Of a DNA stretch of 27,899 nt, positions 82 to 24,026 are shown piece by piece. The DNA lies in assembly GCA_947623845.1 (NCBI GenBank), contig CANQHM010000012.1, forward strand, positions 1 through 27,899, read 5' to 3'. This stretch comes from an uncultured Bacilli bacterium (lineage in GTDB: Bacteria > Bacillota_I > Bacilli_A > RF39 > UBA660). Position 1 is the stretch's first letter. Every line of letters starts with the position of its first letter. The position numbers were made by a program, and so were the translations under genes. The notes beneath the pieces are model-generated. The model did not search any database and was not told the DNA's origin. It was given only the letters and a program-made list of their open reading frames with translations.

Positions 82-1134
82 TTAGAATAATCTAAAGATA
101 TCTTGTATCGTAATATAGACCATTAAAAGCATTAGTAAGAAGAAGCCAACGACGTGGAACATATTCTCTACTTTAGAATCAACTGGACTTCCTTTAATTT
201 TTTCAATTATTAGGAATAATACACGTCCACCATCAAAGGCTGGGAATGGTAAGATATTTACAACTCCTAGGTTAATACTTAAGAATGCTACTAAGTAAAC
301 TAGTTGGTCAATACCTAATCCCACAGATTCATCGACAATGGTATACATTCCAACTGGACCAGATAAAGCACTTAACGAAATCTTACCCGTAAATAAAGAA
401 CCAACAATAGTTACCATGGAATGAATAATCGTACCAAACTTGCTAAAAGCATATTTAATAGCTTCTAAGAATCCTCTTTCTATTTTAGGGGTACTTTGGA
501 TTCCAAAAACTTTAGTTTCTTCGCCATCTTCTCCTTTTACGGTCTTCGGTGTTACATTATATGTTTTTTCTTCCCCAGATTCCTTTTTAACTGTTATATC
601 ATAACTACCATCTTTGGTTTTCATAACTAAATATAATTGTGCCATATCCCAAGAAGAAGTTTTTTTACCATCTACTCTTATTATCGTATCTCCAGCTTCA
701 ATTCCAGCTTCACTTGCTGCTGAACCTTCTTGAACCGTTTGAAGTACTGTTGTACTATATCTTCCACCCCAAATAAGACCAATTATAAATAAGACGGCAA
801 TAGCTAATATAAAGTTCATCGTAACACCAGCAACTAGAATAATTAATCTTTGATACCATGGACGATTGCACATTAATTTTGTCTTAGGGATTTTATCATC
901 ATCGTCCATAACTTCTCCAGCCATTTGAACATAACCACCTATAGGAAATGCTCTTATAGAATATTGAATTTTATCTTTTTTACCAATATGTTTCCATACT
1001 AAAGGTCCCATCCCAATAGAAAATTCATATATATGTACCCCACTCTTTTTCGCCGTTATAAAATGTCCAAATTCATGAACAACAATAATAATACTTAAAA
1101 TTAATAATAATAACAATATATTTACAATAATCAT
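82..1134 (-). CDS. rseP: RseP/RasP-type site-2 zinc metalloprotease
   Basis: Membrane-embedded M50 protease, 350 residues, of the family that cleaves anti-sigma factors and other transmembrane segments inside the bilayer (RasP in Bacillus, RseP in E. coli). The zinc-binding HEFGH motif is at residues 20-24 within the first membrane segment. A single PDZ domain occupies roughly residues 122-190. The second metal-ligand motif (PFPAFDGG) ends at about residue 303, before the last membrane helix. The length is usual for Firmicutes forms with one PDZ domain. A GGAGGAG ribosome binding site precedes the ATG. It lies 12 bases downstream of cdsA, the classical cdsA-rseP order; dxr, often found between them, is absent here. 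The pair is probably co-transcribed. Confidence 0.95.
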   Translation of the reverse strand: MIIVNILLLLLILSIIIVVHEFGHFITAKKSGVHIYEFSIGMGPLVWKHIGKKDKIQYSIRAFPIGGYVQMAGEVMDDDDKIPKTKLMCNRPWYQRLIILVAGVTMNFILAIAVLFIIGLIWGGRYSTTVLQTVQEGSAASEAGIEAGDTIIRVDGKKTSSWDMAQLYLVMKTKDGSYDITVKKESGEEKTYNVTPKTVKGEDGEETKVFGIQSTPKIERGFLEAIKYAFSKFGTIIHSMVTIVGSLFTGKISLSALSGPVGMYTIVDESVGLGIDQLVYLVAFLSINLGVVNILPFPAFDGGRVLFLIIEKIKGSPVDSKVENMFHVVGFFLLMLLMVYITIQDIFRLF

Positions 1135-1146
1135 ATAATTCTCCTC

Positions 1147-1944
1147 CTAAAAGAAATTTATTAACCAAATATAACTTATTACTAAGATTATAAAACTATC
1201 TATATAATCTAATATACCACCTTTTATTGGTAAAATACTTTCAAAATCTTTTAAATTATTTTCGCGTTTTATTTTACTAAATAGAAGATCTCCTACTTGA
1301 GCAATAATCGACATTAAAACTGTCATTACAATAGTTGTTAAGATTTCTTCATTACTTATTAGAATTAAATAAAAAGCACTACCTACAATACTAGCCATTA
1401 AAGTACCAAATACCGCACCTTCAACGGTTTTATTAGGAGATATATTTTTACTTAATTTATGTTTACCGATAAGTTTTCCAAAAAACCAAGCACAAGTATC
1501 TCCTACTAAAGCAATTAATATTAGATATAACAATAAATATTTATTAAAACTTTCTAATAATATTACTCCATTAAAGAATACTCCTAATAAAATAACTAAA
1601 CCAATCATATAAAAAGCATCTTTCGTTTGATAAGTAGTATTAAGTAAAGTTGGAAGTAATAATAATACTAAAGTCATACAAATACTTTGATAAGAAAAAC
1701 CTAAATAGAGCGAATAACCATCAAAGTTTTGATACATGATATTTAATAAACATATAAGTCCAATAGCTAATACCAAGAAAGGGATTTTACTATGACTTAG
1801 TTTTAAATCCATTAACTCTTTATATATTAATATACTAAAGAATCCTATACCAATACTAAAGGGAATTCCTCCTATAAGATATAAGCCGGTTAAGATAATA
1901 ATGATACCTAACCAAGTTACTAATTCTTTATTTATCTTTTTCAT
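1147..1944 (-). CDS. cdsA: Phosphatidate cytidylyltransferase
   Basis: Makes CDP-diacylglycerol from phosphatidate and CTP, the branch point of phospholipid synthesis, in the cytoplasmic membrane. It has 265 residues with many membrane helices. The C-terminal family signature is recognisable at residues 223-249: SKIKR, KD, then GGILDYID, with the Asp pair at 246 and 249 kept. Three signature positions differ from the common pattern: Glu where Gly/Ser/Ala is usual, Lys instead of His before GG, and Tyr instead of Arg in the D-R-x-D core. The assignment rests on the signature, topology, size and the adjacent rseP. A GGGAGGA ribosome binding site precedes the ATG. It is first gene of the cdsA-rseP unit. 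Confidence 0.9.
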   Translation of the reverse strand: MKKINKELVTWLGIIIILTGLYLIGGIPFSIGIGFFSILIYKELMDLKLSHSKIPFLVLAIGLICLLNIMYQNFDGYSLYLGFSYQSICMTLVLLLLPTLLNTTYQTKDAFYMIGLVILLGVFFNGVILLESFNKYLLLYLILIALVGDTCAWFFGKLIGKHKLSKNISPNKTVEGAVFGTLMASIVGSAFYLILISNEEILTTIVMTVLMSIIAQVGDLLFSKIKRENNLKDFESILPIKGGILDYIDSFIILVISYIWLINFF

Positions 1945-1963
1945 CTAATCCTCCCTAATATAA

Positions 1964-1993
1964 AGTATAACTCATATACATAGTTAAGTGCAA
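1964..1993 (-). promoter_or_regulatory. Predicted sigma-A promoter of cdsA-rseP
   Basis: On the minus strand, TTGCAC (1993-1988) and TATACT (1969-1964) are separated by 18 bases, just upstream of the cdsA ribosome binding site. Confidence 0.6.
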
Positions 1994-2029
1994 GAAGGAA
2001 AAGAAAATTTTTTATAACTAGAAATAATA

Positions 2030-3502
2030 TTACATAAATAATGTGCTATAGTAGCTTTTATAGTAACCTATACCTACTTCGTTAAAGTTATCATTTATCA
2101 TATTATTATAATGTCCGGTAGAATTTTTCCAGCCCTCCATTGCAGATTCAATGGTATTATACCCCGCTGCAATATTTTCACCTTGAGCATAGGAACTAAG
2201 GCCCATTTCGCTATAAATAGAATAAACACGTGAACCATCAGGACGAGTGTGATCAAATTTACCACTCCAATACATTTCAATAGCTCTTATAGTTGCTGCT
2301 AAAGCTAAAGTTCTATTATAAGTTAAAGGAGGTTTTCCTACTTCACTACGGTAGCCATTTAAGATTTCTATTCCTTTTAAGATATTACTTTCATTACTAT
2401 TAAGAACGGTAGTGGCTTCTGCTTGTAATTCAGCAGTAGTGGCATGATATCCACTTCTATCATACTTTTCGCTCTTATATTCTTTATATAAGCATTTACC
2501 AGCATCACTAAATACCGCATAAGTACGGTGAGCTACCGTTTCAACTTTAACTCCATATACATATTTAGTATCGATTATTACATCTTCATCTTGATATTCG
2601 ATGAAATTTGGCAAAAAGTAAGGAGTCCAACCAGTAGATAGTTTCTCTTCGCAAGTTATAGTTTTAGATGGGGTGGTAGTTTCAGGATTACTATTTTGAT
2701 TATCGTTAGTTTGGTTGTTGTTATTTTGATTGTTGCTCATTTGATTATTGTTAGTGGTTTGGTTATTAGATGGTGTTGTATCTTTAGAGTTACTAGTATC
2801 ATTTTTAGAAGTTTTTTCTTTAATAGTTAATTTTGTTTTGGCAGTAGTAATATTACCACTTTCATCTTCAGCTTTTATCTCTATATCATAAGTTTTTACG
2901 GCACTATAAGAAGACATTTTTTCATCACTAAAACTTAGAAGACATTCTTTATTACTATTATCGGTACAGCTTTTAACAAAAGTATTAACGTCATATTTTT
3001 CACCTTTAGTTATCGTAACTTCTTGTAATTCTAAAACAGGTGGTTCTTTATCTTCCCCTACTTTATTCTTAATAATGACTTTTTCTAATTGTTCTTCTTT
3101 TAATTTATTTTCTAATTTAGTTATAGATAAAGTATTATTATCTAAAGATGCTTGTAAATCTTCGTCATTATATTTAATAGCACTTAAACAAACTAAGTAA
3201 TCATTTTCAATAGGTTTAAAACAATTTTCATCTTCGCATTGTTCATAAATTGTATTATATTCTATTAAAGTATCTTTATAATCACTTTCTAAAAGATTAT
3301 CATAAGTTATTTCTTCTAATGTATCTAAATATTTTAAACAATCTTCATTTACTTTATAAGTTAAGTTATCTTCTTCTTTCTTAGGAGTTTTTTGATCTTC
3401 TTTTTTATTAACTAATTTAAATGCAATAAAAATAGCTAATCCTACTAATAAAAGAACTCCTAAAATAATTCCAATAAGTTTTAAATTTTCTTTTTTCTTC
3501 AT
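2030..3502 (-). CDS. Membrane-anchored CAP (SCP-like) domain protein
   Basis: Predicted extracytoplasmic protein of 490 residues, anchored by an N-terminal membrane helix at about residues 8-30. In order: a charged, Cys-containing region to about 150; a bacterial Ig-like module at about 151-229 (begins with DKEPPVLEL, ends with DESGNITTAKTKLTI); a low-complexity Asn/Gln/Thr/Ser linker at about 231-283; a short middle region; and a C-terminal CAP domain from about residue 373. The CAP motifs are visible: FDHTRPDG, GENIAAG and GWKNSTGHYNNM. In other Bacilli this domain occurs in secreted proteins and in the spore or germination protein YkwD. The exact substrate is unknown. It is a single gene with its own ribosome binding site, between cdsA and khpA. 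Confidence 0.88.
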   Translation of the reverse strand: MKKKENLKLIGIILGVLLLVGLAIFIAFKLVNKKEDQKTPKKEEDNLTYKVNEDCLKYLDTLEEITYDNLLESDYKDTLIEYNTIYEQCEDENCFKPIENDYLVCLSAIKYNDEDLQASLDNNTLSITKLENKLKEEQLEKVIIKNKVGEDKEPPVLELQEVTITKGEKYDVNTFVKSCTDNSNKECLLSFSDEKMSSYSAVKTYDIEIKAEDESGNITTAKTKLTIKEKTSKNDTSNSKDTTPSNNQTTNNNQMSNNQNNNNQTNDNQNSNPETTTPSKTITCEEKLSTGWTPYFLPNFIEYQDEDVIIDTKYVYGVKVETVAHRTYAVFSDAGKCLYKEYKSEKYDRSGYHATTAELQAEATTVLNSNESNILKGIEILNGYRSEVGKPPLTYNRTLALAATIRAIEMYWSGKFDHTRPDGSRVYSIYSEMGLSSYAQGENIAAGYNTIESAMEGWKNSTGHYNNMINDNFNEVGIGYYKSYYSTLFM

Positions 3503-20564: not shown

Positions 20565-21389
20565 TTATTTTTTTAAAAGATTTTGGCTTTCAATAGCTAA
20601 TTCTTTTAAACTTTTGGCAAGGGTTGGCATATCTTCGGGCATTATTCCCCCAATGTCAGCGATAGCTTTGCGGACCTTTTTACCAACTTCGTAATGTACT
20701 TCTTTAGCATTACTTTCTCCTTTAATGTTATCTTTAACTAACTTTTGTCTTGTTTGACTTATTCTAAATAAGTTCGCAATTAATCCATCTTCTCCCATAT
20801 TATCTAAAATATCTTCGCGATAACGTAGTTTCTTTCTTTTCGCGATATCATTAGCGGTTTCACCATTATATAATCCTTTATAACCAGCATTATGAAATTC
20901 CGCCATATTTTTAACACCAGCATTTTTAGCAGCACGATTTAAAGAACGATTACCTTTTTTAGTTAAATTTCTTTGATAAAATCTTTTTTCGTCTTCCGTT
21001 AATAAGTCGTAATCCATCTCGGTAAGTTCCATTTTGCGTGTTTGAACAGCGAAATATGTTTGAGCAAGAGCGATGCTTTCTTTTCTGGAATCACCATTTT
21101 GGGCGATCAAATAACAAGCATATCTTGAAAGTTTGTAATCATTAATTATAACTTCGGCATTATTAGCTCTTTTCGACAACTTCCCGACGTCGGCAAAATG
21201 TTCTTTAACAGCATTATTGCTTAATTTACAAGCACTTTTAGCTTTACTAACAACAGTTTCAAAATTACTCCATTTACTATACCCTAGAACTGCCATCAAC
21301 TCTCTAGCATACCAATAAACATGTCCTTCTTCGTCGATATGTTTAATATCTTCAAATATTTTTTCATTATAATTTTCTATATTATTCAT
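20565..21389 (-). CDS. dinD: DNA-damage-inducible protein D (DinD)
   Basis: A 274-residue protein, the same length as E. coli DinD, an SOS-induced protein reported to inhibit RecA filament activity. The N-terminal part (about 20-115) is a BRO-N/antirepressor-like domain: WYARELMAVLGYSKWSNF, then DYKLSRYACYLIAQNGDSRK and QTYFAVQTRK. The C-terminal part carries the DinD-specific KNMAEFHNAGYKGLYNGET, then RYREDILDNMG and ALFRISQT-type stretches (here NLFRISQTRQKL). The ribosome binding site is AGGAGG. A LexA-type box covers the promoter, so SOS control is likely. It is a mobile, patchily distributed gene in Firmicutes and probably accessory here. Confidence 0.92.
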   Translation of the reverse strand: MNNIENYNEKIFEDIKHIDEEGHVYWYARELMAVLGYSKWSNFETVVSKAKSACKLSNNAVKEHFADVGKLSKRANNAEVIINDYKLSRYACYLIAQNGDSRKESIALAQTYFAVQTRKMELTEMDYDLLTEDEKRFYQRNLTKKGNRSLNRAAKNAGVKNMAEFHNAGYKGLYNGETANDIAKRKKLRYREDILDNMGEDGLIANLFRISQTRQKLVKDNIKGESNAKEVHYEVGKKVRKAIADIGGIMPEDMPTLAKSLKELAIESQNLLKK

Positions 21390-21442: not shown

Positions 21443-21472
21443 ATTATACTACTGCAAACTTAGGTTCGTCAA
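21443..21472 (-). promoter_or_regulatory. dinD promoter with LexA (SOS) box
   Basis: TTGACG (21472-21467) and TATAAT (21448-21443), 18 bases apart on the minus strand. CGAACCTAAGTTTG (21468-21455) overlaps the -35 box. It matches the Firmicutes LexA consensus CGAAC-N4-GTTCG at nine of ten fixed positions, with T for C in the right arm. Confidence 0.75.
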
Positions 21473-21502
21473 TAAAAAGTTAATAATTTGTAAAAAATCT
21501 TA

Positions 21503-21998
21503 ATTCTCAATGTAAATGCAATTTTTACGACATGAGTTGCATTAACTTCGAGAATAAGTGTTGCAATTACTATGAGAATAACTATATTTATAAAAATAAA
21601 ACTAACAATCAATTGTAATTGTTTTTACTTTGAGAATTTGTACAATACACTTTTAAGTTTTATACCAAAAATTCTTTGATTCTTTCTTATAAGAAAGAAT
21701 GCCTAACCGGCGAGGTTATTATTTAAACCTTTCCCGGCTTCTTTGCTTACTTTCTTTTCCGTAAAAGAAAGTAAGGCCTGTCTGGCAAAACATTCTTAAT
21801 TTTGAATATTATGTATCATCTTGATCATGTTAATCGTCAAAAATACTGATATTTTTCCCTTAAGATTTAAAATTGTTTTTACTTTGAGAAATTATCATTT
21901 TTTAGAAAAATTGGAATGTTTTTTTATATTGATTTTTTAGTTGCGTTTACTTTTGTCTTTTAAATACAGGAATTACGAGTTGCTTTTACTTTGAGAAG
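21503..21998. mobile_element. Gene-free repeat element with inverted ends and hairpin core (possible non-autonomous insertion)
   Basis: This 0.5-kb part of a 660-base gene-free gap holds seven copies or near-copies of a 19-base motif, consensus TTGCnTTTACTTTGAGAAT. One is on the minus strand at the left end (21503-21521). The others are on the plus strand at 21537, 21561, 21619, 21873, 21941 (degenerate) and 21980 (right end). The outermost two copies are therefore inverted relative to each other, with extra direct copies inside, the layout of multiple terminal repeats in IS21-type elements. AATTTGTAAAAAA occurs just outside both ends. No transposase is present. The mobile interpretation is inferred. 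Confidence 0.55.
21679..21775. repeat. Three consecutive hairpins in the repeat-element core
   Basis: A perfect 22-base palindrome (21679-21700; half-site ATTCTTTCTTA) is followed by a nested stem. In it CCGG at 21707 and 21734 enclose AGGTT (21713-21717) pairing with AACCT (21726-21730). A perfect 13-bp stem CTTACTTTCTTTT / AAAAGAAAGTAAG (21746-21758 with 21763-21775, loop CCGT) comes next. It resembles REP-like palindromic units, or could be a structured RNA. G+C is locally higher than the surroundings. Confidence 0.7.
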
Positions 21999-22010
21999 TC
22001 ACCAATTTGT

Positions 22011-22039
22011 AAAAAAAATCCCCTACTTTTAAAGTAAGG
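22011..22039 (-). terminator. Terminator after the 326-residue unknown gene
   Basis: CCTACTT / AAGTAAGG stem with one bulge (22022-22039), followed on the minus strand by TTTTTTTT. Confidence 0.7.
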
Positions 22040-22052
22040 AAATTATTATTTT

Positions 22053-23033
22053 TTAATCAATATCATTTAATCTTTTTAAGTATAAAGCTTCTTCTTTTTC
22101 AATAATCTCAGGAGTAATTAAAGGATTACTTTTAATGATACTTTGGTTATATGTAGCTTGTAATTGTTTTAGTTTGGTAAGATTAAGTTTTAATTCTTTT
22201 AAAGCTTCTAATAGTTCTTCTTTACAAGTGGGATTATTTAAAGTAGCAATAGCACGTGATAAAGAAGTATACCCTTTTTCTAATTCATTTAAAGGATAAC
22301 TTAGTTTTAAGGCTTCTCTTATATCATAAACATATTTTTTAAGTTCTTGATTATTTCTTACCAAGTTCATAACTTTATCATAGGTATATTCCTTAGTTAT
22401 AGCAGGTGGTAAAAGAGCAGGATCAAAAGTTAAACTATTAACAATAAAGTTATGACAATAGATATGGCTGTTATAAATACTGATTTCCATTTGGTAAGGG
22501 GTGTTGGTAGAGTGATATTGATAACCATTTGTATAATTAGGAATTATTTCAAGATTAGCCATATAATAAATCAAGTATTTATCAAATAAGATTGCGGTAG
22601 GATTTTCCGTATATTCTAATTTATAAGTTTCTTTAAAATCTCTTTCTTCATAAGTAATTTTATTGATATCTAAAGATTTTATTTTCTTTAATAGATTTTT
22701 TACTTTATCTAGTTCTTCTTTATGTGCTACTAAATAATCATAGAAAAAATCAATATCACTATCTTCTATACGTGTAAAAATCATCCGCGATAGGAATCCA
22801 TTTAGAAACGTATTTGCATTAATTATTTTAAGAGTACTTACGTATTTGTGATAAAACTCTTTAACATCCCTATTACCTAGAACGCCTTTTTTATTTAAAA
22901 GATTTTCTAAAATATTAATTTTCTTAATTGCATTTTTATTTTTAACTAACTCTTGTAAATCATTTCTAAAAGATGCATATGTATCTAAAATATTACATAG
23001 TGTAATTAAATGACTAGTATATATCTTGGCCAT
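22053..23033 (-). CDS. Protein of unknown function in the accessory region
   Basis: A 326-residue soluble protein that I cannot assign to a family. It appears mostly helical: a leucine/lysine-rich N-terminal half, a middle with many Tyr and Asn (residues about 160-205, including YQYHSTNTPYQMEISIYNSHIYCHN), and a C-terminal pair of long charged helices with leucine repeats (LLEALKELKLNLTKLKQLQ). No signal peptide or membrane helix is visible. The ribosome binding site is GGAGG. Its promoter is back-to-back with that of the KilA-N gene, the two -35 boxes being seven bases apart, so the two genes may be co-regulated. Confidence 0.75.
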   Translation of the reverse strand: MAKIYTSHLITLCNILDTYASFRNDLQELVKNKNAIKKINILENLLNKKGVLGNRDVKEFYHKYVSTLKIINANTFLNGFLSRMIFTRIEDSDIDFFYDYLVAHKEELDKVKNLLKKIKSLDINKITYEERDFKETYKLEYTENPTAILFDKYLIYYMANLEIIPNYTNGYQYHSTNTPYQMEISIYNSHIYCHNFIVNSLTFDPALLPPAITKEYTYDKVMNLVRNNQELKKYVYDIREALKLSYPLNELEKGYTSLSRAIATLNNPTCKEELLEALKELKLNLTKLKQLQATYNQSIIKSNPLITPEIIEKEEALYLKRLNDID

Positions 23034-23165: not shown

Positions 23166-24026
23166 ATGAATAATAAAATTTCAACAATAATGAATGTTAA
23201 TAATAATGATGTTAGAGTAATGCGCGTAGAGAATGAAGATTATATCTCCTTAACAGATTTAGCAAGATACAAAAACTCAAAAGAGCCATCTGACGTCATA
23301 AAAAAATGGTTAAGCAATTATGATACTATAGAATTCTTAGGATTATGGGAAAAACTTAATAATGAAGATTTTAATTCGGCGGAATTCAGCCTAATTAAAA
23401 TGGATGCTCCAAAAAAATCTTTTACTATGACTCCTAGTCAATGGTGCCAAAAGACCAATGCAAAAGGAATAACTTTTAGTAAAGGCAAATATAGTATAGG
23501 TACATTTGCTCATTCTGACATTGCCTTAGAATTCGCATCATGGATTGATAATTTATTTAAATTATATTTAATTAAAGAATTTAAACGTCTAAAACTTAAT
23601 GAAAGCTATCAAGAAAAAATAGAATGGTCAGTAAGAAGAAGTTTGTCTAAAACTAATTATAAAATACATACAGATAGTATAAAAGAAAACCTAGTTCCTA
23701 AACTTACTGAAAAACAAAAACAAATAATTTATGCAAATGAGGCAGATGTGATAAATATGGCTTTATTTGGAATGACAGCAAAAGAATGGAAAGAAATGAA
23801 TCCAAATTCTAATGGTAATATTAGGGATCATACTGATATTTTACATTTAATAGTATTAAGCAATTTAGAAGTACTAAATGCAAGTATGATTGATAATAAT
23901 ATTTCTCAAAGAACTAGATTAGAGAGTTTAAATAAAACTGCTATAAAAGAATTAAATATTTTAGCAAATGATAATAATATACAGAAATTGGATTCATATA
24001 ATAAAAAAATGATAGAAAATAAATAG
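23166..24026 (+). CDS. KilA-N domain protein
   Basis: A 286-residue protein with a KilA-N DNA-binding domain at about residues 20-140, a domain common in phages, prophages and large DNA viruses. Signs are the start (EDYISLTDLARYKNSKEPSDVIKKWL), the middle (TIEFLGLWEKLNN) and the block GTFAHSDIALEFASWIDNLFKLYLIKEFKRL, which is very typical. The C-terminal half, including AKEWKEMNPN, resembles the extension found in chromosomal KilA-N proteins. An AAAGGAG ribosome binding site is present. Role not known; gene regulation or an antirepressor-like function is plausible. It is close to dinD, whose BRO-N domain is related in use. Confidence 0.88.
   Translation: MNNKISTIMNVNNNDVRVMRVENEDYISLTDLARYKNSKEPSDVIKKWLSNYDTIEFLGLWEKLNNEDFNSAEFSLIKMDAPKKSFTMTPSQWCQKTNAKGITFSKGKYSIGTFAHSDIALEFASWIDNLFKLYLIKEFKRLKLNESYQEKIEWSVRRSLSKTNYKIHTDSIKENLVPKLTEKQKQIIYANEADVINMALFGMTAKEWKEMNPNSNGNIRDHTDILHLIVLSNLEVLNASMIDNNISQRTRLESLNKTAIKELNILANDNNIQKLDSYNKKMIENK

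Follow-up and report, generated by a model that had tools for sequence, protein, structure and literature searches.

The repeat cluster in the gap to the left of an uncharacterised gene and next to dinD is very probably a MITE-like element of 506 bp without a transposase gene, derived by deletion from an IS30-like insertion sequence of ~2.2 kb. The unit carries an array of repeated sites and a flanking repeat, one relative (locus L001) has an empty site, and a full-length relative (locus L152) carries an IS30-family transposase. Across the window, i.e., the whole stretch of 27,899 bases that was analysed, the motif TTGCNTTTACTTTGAGAA matched six times at ≤3 mismatches, every time inside the reported stretch (starts 21504-, 21537+, 21561+, 21619+, 21873+ and 21980+), while 100 shuffles gave a mean of 0.27 matches and a maximum of 2, none (0/100) reaching six. 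The seventh copy, at 21941, is weak (5 mismatches to TTGCNTTTACTTTGAGAA) and was counted as genuine because a site lies at the corresponding position both in L152 and in a short form from another genome (G361:C100); a minus-strand match with 5 mismatches at 21588 (element position 91) has no counterpart in either and was dropped as chance. The seven copies of the original prediction, the leftmost inverted and the remaining six direct, are thus borne out, with the leftmost starting at 21504 and not at 21503. Their intervals (33, 24, 58, 254, 68 and 39) and the one inverted copy exclude a CRISPR array, against which irregular spacing had already been said to argue.

The sequence that had been noticed on both sides of the cluster is an exact 13-bp direct repeat, AATTTGTAAAAAA, abutting both ends at 21485-21497 and 22004-22016, so that the element proper spans 21498-22003 (506 bp), starting with TCTTAATTCTC and finishing with GAGAAGTCACC. 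None of 5,000 random placements (0) gave a repeat of at least 12 bp. The features of the unit are as follows.

21485..21497, no strand: left 13-bp target-site duplication (TSD) AATTTGTAAAAAA, exact repeat
21498..22003, plus strand: probable non-autonomous IS30-like element, 506 bp, from its site array, TSD and absence in L001
21504..21521, minus strand: site 1, inverted, left terminal repeat, from the motif match
21537..21554, plus strand: site 2, homologous site at 39 of the L152 element
21561..21578, plus strand: site 3, homologous site at 63 of the L152 element
21619..21636, plus strand: site 4, homologous site at 121 of the L152 element
21668..21795, plus strand: predicted structured segment with three hairpins, at about 21679-21700, 21707-21737 and 21746-21775
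21805..21863, plus strand: possible decayed transposase remnant, last ~20 codons, left limit uncertain
21873..21890, plus strand: site 5, homologous site at 2046 of the L152 element
21941..21958, plus strand: site 6, weak, 5 mismatches, homologous site at 2114 of the L152 element
21980..21997, plus strand: site 7, right terminal repeat, homologous site at 2153 of the L152 element
22004..22016, no strand: right 13-bp TSD, overlapping the T-run of the neighbour gene's terminator-like site

The complete element at L152 (G214:C30) occupies positions 839-3014 of that locus (2,176 bp). Its sites start at element positions 7-, 39+, 63+, 121+, 2046+, 2114+ and 2153+, those of the window element at 7-, 40+, 64+, 122+, 376+, 444+ and 483+, and those of the 523-bp G361:C100 form at 7, 40, 64, 122, 393, 461 and 500, with the same orientation in all three. 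Intervals of 24, 58, 68 and 39 are identical in the three elements, and the first interval, 33 in the window element and G361:C100, is 32 in L152. By this matching order and spacing, the window unit corresponds to the two ends of an L152-like element, lacking ~1.67 kb of the stretch from site 4 to site 5. Six of the seven window sites end in GAGAA, site 6 being the exception, and six of the seven L152 sites end in TTCCAA, the seventh in TTCCAT; a site variant shared within each element would fit recognition sites that evolve with their transposase. L152 is flanked by a 13-bp repeat, AATTTTTTTATAA, and because its flanks are very T-rich, with 8 of 5,000 random placements also reaching at least 12 bp, its boundary rests equally on the imperfect terminal inverted repeat (21/26 positions match). 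In the window, the stretch at 21805-21863 is a possible, moderately supported decayed 3′ end of the transposase gene: in local DNA alignment with the L152 transposase 3′ end, 8/2000 shuffles were equally good, and alignments with two G361:C100 sequences were weaker (142/2000 and 63/2000 shuffles as good).

L152 encodes a 90-aa ORF and a 437-aa transposase, the latter scoring 94.3 bits against the IS30-family model NF033563 (cut-off 80); its only Pfam match was HTH_38 at 17.5 bits, under the cut-off of 27. This bears on the family assignment, as the original prediction had proposed a transposase-free insertion sequence derivative but had placed it in the IS21 family. The former part is supported by the 13-bp duplication, the empty site in L001 and the L152 array, whereas the latter had to be abandoned. 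IS21 ends carry several repeated sites each, and such a multi-copy arrangement is indeed real here; an IS21-type derivative would consist of multi-site ends recognised by IstA from which the transposase genes had been lost. Yet the transposase within the matching ends is of the IS30 type, and the IS21 model scored just 13.7 bits on it (cut-off 160), leaving this explanation with virtually no probability. PF01695 (IstB) matches were present in three genomes.

The 90-aa ORF of L152 (1298-1570) precedes and overlaps the transposase start, and a similar ORF start was seen by eye in the full-length copy at G361:C50. In 11 more distant elements the transposase begins only ~105-245 bp from the left end, which leaves no room there for a 90-aa ORF.

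Turning to the locus itself, the gap around the unit holds no ORF of at least 80 aa, and across the window Rfam gave no family at the gathering score and ARAGORN no tRNA or tmRNA. The genes beside the unit are:

20565..21389: dinD, left of the unit and reading away from it (NF008573 317 bits, cut-off 242; Pfam Bro-N)
22053..23033, minus strand: uncharacterised gene, right of the unit
23166..24026: KilA-N gene, between the uncharacterised gene and a trmB-like methyltransferase gene

A terminator-like site of the uncharacterised gene lies at 22041-22019, and the right 13-bp copy overlaps its T-run. The nearest locus found is L001, from the uncultured Bacilli bacterium isolate Lapin-028 (presumably of rabbit origin, judging by its name), where the best segment of a MurJ-like protein is 92% identical. 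There, a homologue of the right-hand gene (42% identity between window and L001; present in one of three genomes of that genus) is followed after ~130 bp by a dinD homologue, recognised by eye, of which the initial 25 codons are present before the contig ends, with no array between the two genes. Minus the element and one repeat copy, the window aligns with L001 across the dinD promoter, L001 being 12 bp shorter near the junction. We read this locus, in one relative, as an empty site. The original prediction would have been contradicted by a unit present once only and at one locus throughout the relatives; L001 is without the unit. In the nearest genome (G001), no motif was found at ≤2 mismatches and no transposase at E≤1e-20.

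Since repeated, directional sites adjoin the KilA-N gene (23166-24026) and dinD (20565-21389), they could be thought to form a binding array for KilA-N, DinD or a chromosomal regulator, as had also been proposed. However, the same array at matching intervals flanks an IS30 transposase elsewhere, the flanking repeats are of the transposition type, and in L001 the promoter region and start of dinD are retained but the array is absent. We therefore consider a regulatory array highly improbable; it is not needed to account for sites that recur elsewhere as the ends of IS30-like or short elements.

The preferred explanation, a deletion derivative of an IS30-like element, suggests the following course of events. 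The seven motif copies would be transposase recognition sites, four in the left end (the first inverted) and three in the right end, which the transposase presumably binds before pairing the two ends and inserting them with a 13-bp stagger. A full copy would have lost its interior, i.e., the small ORF and the transposase gene, and kept both ends together with the structured leader segment. Insertion would have taken place in the terminator T-run between dinD and its neighbour, where a 13-bp staggered cut would have left the flanking AATTTGTAAAAAA duplication. What inserted may have been a full copy that underwent its deletion later, or else the short form, mobilised by a transposase supplied in trans. 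That the transposase binds the sites, and that the short form can itself be mobilised in trans, are inferences.

Related copies were sought in several ways. With window positions 21490-22020 as the query, 68 of 291 genomes of the family gave matches, mostly short and weak, the strongest spanning one end or the internal segment. The motif at ≤1 mismatch occurred in 27/386 genomes; because the reversed-pattern control also matched, in 14/386, single matches prove little. At least four motif matches were found in five genomes (G097, G154, G222, G359 and G361), against 0 in the control. In G361, a full copy is split over contigs C50 (left half) and C53 (right half), which share a flanking repeat of up to 14 bp, and in G097, contigs C64 and C101 pair likewise as a split copy with a repeat of up to 15 bp. 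Short forms with a TSD are those at G361:C100 (L114; 523 bp, TSD 12 bp), G222:C4 (86 bp, TSD 15 bp), G097:C7 (63 bp, TSD 13 bp), G358:C59 (63 bp, TSD 13 bp) and G359:C137 (64 bp, TSD 13 bp), and those at G359:C46 and G273:C6 are without one; six of the eight short elements, the window element included, thus have a TSD of 12-15 bp. In the 63-64-bp forms, the inverted site pair of the left end is joined to the terminus of the right end, a structure that loss of the interior between two direct site copies would produce.

An alternative to movement of the 506-bp form as such is in-place loss, in which a full-length element would have inserted and then lost its interior, leaving a dead relic that never moved alone. 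No second copy of an identical 506-bp form was found, and the TSD and empty site fit such a history equally well. The deletion junction of the G361:C100 form appears to differ, the right 76 bases of that form match the right end at G361:C53 exactly, and the left arm of the window element is closer to full-length G361:C50 (87.7%) than to G361:C100 (82.6%). On the other hand, the window element and G361:C100 have alike retained the two ends together with the structured segment, and the 63-64-bp forms with their own TSDs in G097, G358 and G359 suggest that short forms can be substrates, although deletion in place could also yield them. A single deletion common to the window and G361:C100 was considered and found unsupported, as the alignments suggest different junctions, the right one in the window being ambiguous. 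In-place loss consequently falls only a little short of an even prospect, and the data fit equally well whether the deletion preceded insertion, giving a mobile MITE, or followed it, giving a relic. The G361:C100 form directly adjoins a second IS30-like element at that element's right end; this neighbour has TTTTCCAA-type sites, and its transposase fragment is 81% identical to the transposase of L152.

Exact motif matches occurred in 25 viral-contig stretches, and only one (L029) has an end-like cluster (6 matches), with similar ends and a 14-bp repeat around decayed sequence that, in our own reading, may be IS30-like. Two stretches with two widely spaced matches each (L026 and L035) and the other 22, with one match each, were taken as chance. 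A plasmid search with the right end returned one weak match only (E 0.6), a phage search with the left end no match, and a viral-contig search with the L152 transposase nothing that was confirmed.

Among 6,085 candidates, 1,024 were relatives of the L152 transposase at E≤1e-3, and at E≤1e-20 it matched 80/386 genomes of the family. For a TSD survey, we took the best 30 fetched transposase loci of the E≤1e-20 search, 27 of which extended far enough to either side. In 9/27 full-length relatives and in 0/702 mispaired controls, a direct repeat of ≥12 bp lay beside an inverted repeat of at least 17/26, and relaxing the inverted-repeat threshold to 15/26 gave 9/27 against 4/702. The combination was lacking in 18/27, whether through decay, misplaced boundaries or a genuine absence. 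Among 18 tabulated elements, chosen for having a TSD (nine full-length, six short, L029 and two split copies, the latter entered as 13 and 14 bp, one below their longest match), the TSD measured 12 bp in 1, 13 bp in 12, 14 bp in 4 and 15 bp in 1. Their targets are AT-rich, and 4/18 are terminator-like, compared with 55/1500 random AT-rich positions in a control not confined to intergenic DNA, so that terminator targeting by this IS30-like group is weakly supported.

Viewed against known systems, the L152 element resembles members of the IS30 family (e.g., ISApl1) in its above-cut-off NF033563 score, imperfect terminal inverted repeats and AT-rich targets. It differs from them in the seven sites that it and the window element have across their two ends, in the extra 90-aa ORF ahead of the transposase, and in the 12-15-bp duplications of its group, mostly 13 bp, unlike the typical 2 bp. 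That typical length of 2 bp for IS30 members is given in PMC5821093. Long target duplications are likewise known from another IS30-type element, IS1630. By the title of a 1999 paper, IS1630 reportedly targets and duplicates inverted repeats. In Mycoplasma fermentans, duplications of 16, 23, 25 and 26 bp were described at 4/7 complete copies of this element, according to PMC3317919. In contrast to these 16-26 bp, the duplications here are nearly constant (13 bp in 12/18, range 12-15), and only 4/18 targets here are terminator-like.

The window element shares with bacterial MITEs its short length, the lack of a transposase gene, inverted ends, a flanking duplication and related full-length elements, but its ends carry seven sites, and its related short forms include the 63-64-bp ones made up of a left-end site pair and the right terminus. 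Repeated sites at each end are also a feature of the IS21 family, from which the IS30 transposase sets this group apart. Among the literature titles searched, we recognised no account of a 13-bp duplication in IS30 elements or of such IS30-derived short elements, though a named member may exist in ISfinder, and we regard the element as probably new within IS30-derived elements because of its long duplication and multi-site ends. A broader reading, which we put forward tentatively and hold to be somewhat improbable on balance, is that an unnamed IS30 subgroup of uncultured gut-type Bacilli, with a near-constant 13-bp cut and a seven-site array, repeatedly sheds nested, still-mobilisable mini-elements of 63, 86 and ~500 bp, the window element among them; such shedding would occur repeatedly because the left end already holds an inverted site pair.

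An otherwise orphan repeat cluster is thereby explained, and it draws attention to an IS30 lineage whose footprint measures ~13 bp and whose ends carry several sites. How far apart the two strands are joined in the transposition complex is reflected in the length of a target duplication; a change from 2 to 13 bp inside a single transposase family therefore poses a concrete and testable structural question. Direct site copies within the ends would also offer an insertion sequence a simple route to miniature forms without a transposase.

The structured segment (21668-21795) folds as RNA with a z of -4.8 on the plus strand. It was matched in G214, G279, G136, G072 and G243, and in G214 and G361:C50 it occupies the space from the left sites to the ORFs. 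In G279 it comes directly after a transposase, and in G136 and G072 it stands without the end motif (≤3 mismatches, 4.5 kb of each examined). An Alifold consensus contained 30 pairs, 4 of them with two-sided change, and the covariation term was unfavourable (+1.57). As a guess, the segment could act as a leader, protecting the transposase gene against transcription that enters from outside. The repeat of ~120 nt with three predicted hairpins is found within IS30-like elements and also apart from them, with copies at 21668-21795 in the window, 1884-1990 in L166, 2235-2345 in L167 and 1082-1209 in L154.

Two further observations concern the neighbouring genes. The KilA-N gene is missing from the corresponding place in L001, which implies a second gain or loss at this locus. 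To the left of the element, a promoter-like site of dinD, TTGACG-18-TATAAT (window 21443-21472), overlaps CGAACCTAAGTTTG, which resembles a Gram-positive LexA box, and the L001 counterpart of CGAACCTAAGTTTG is the similar CGAACTAAAGTTTG.
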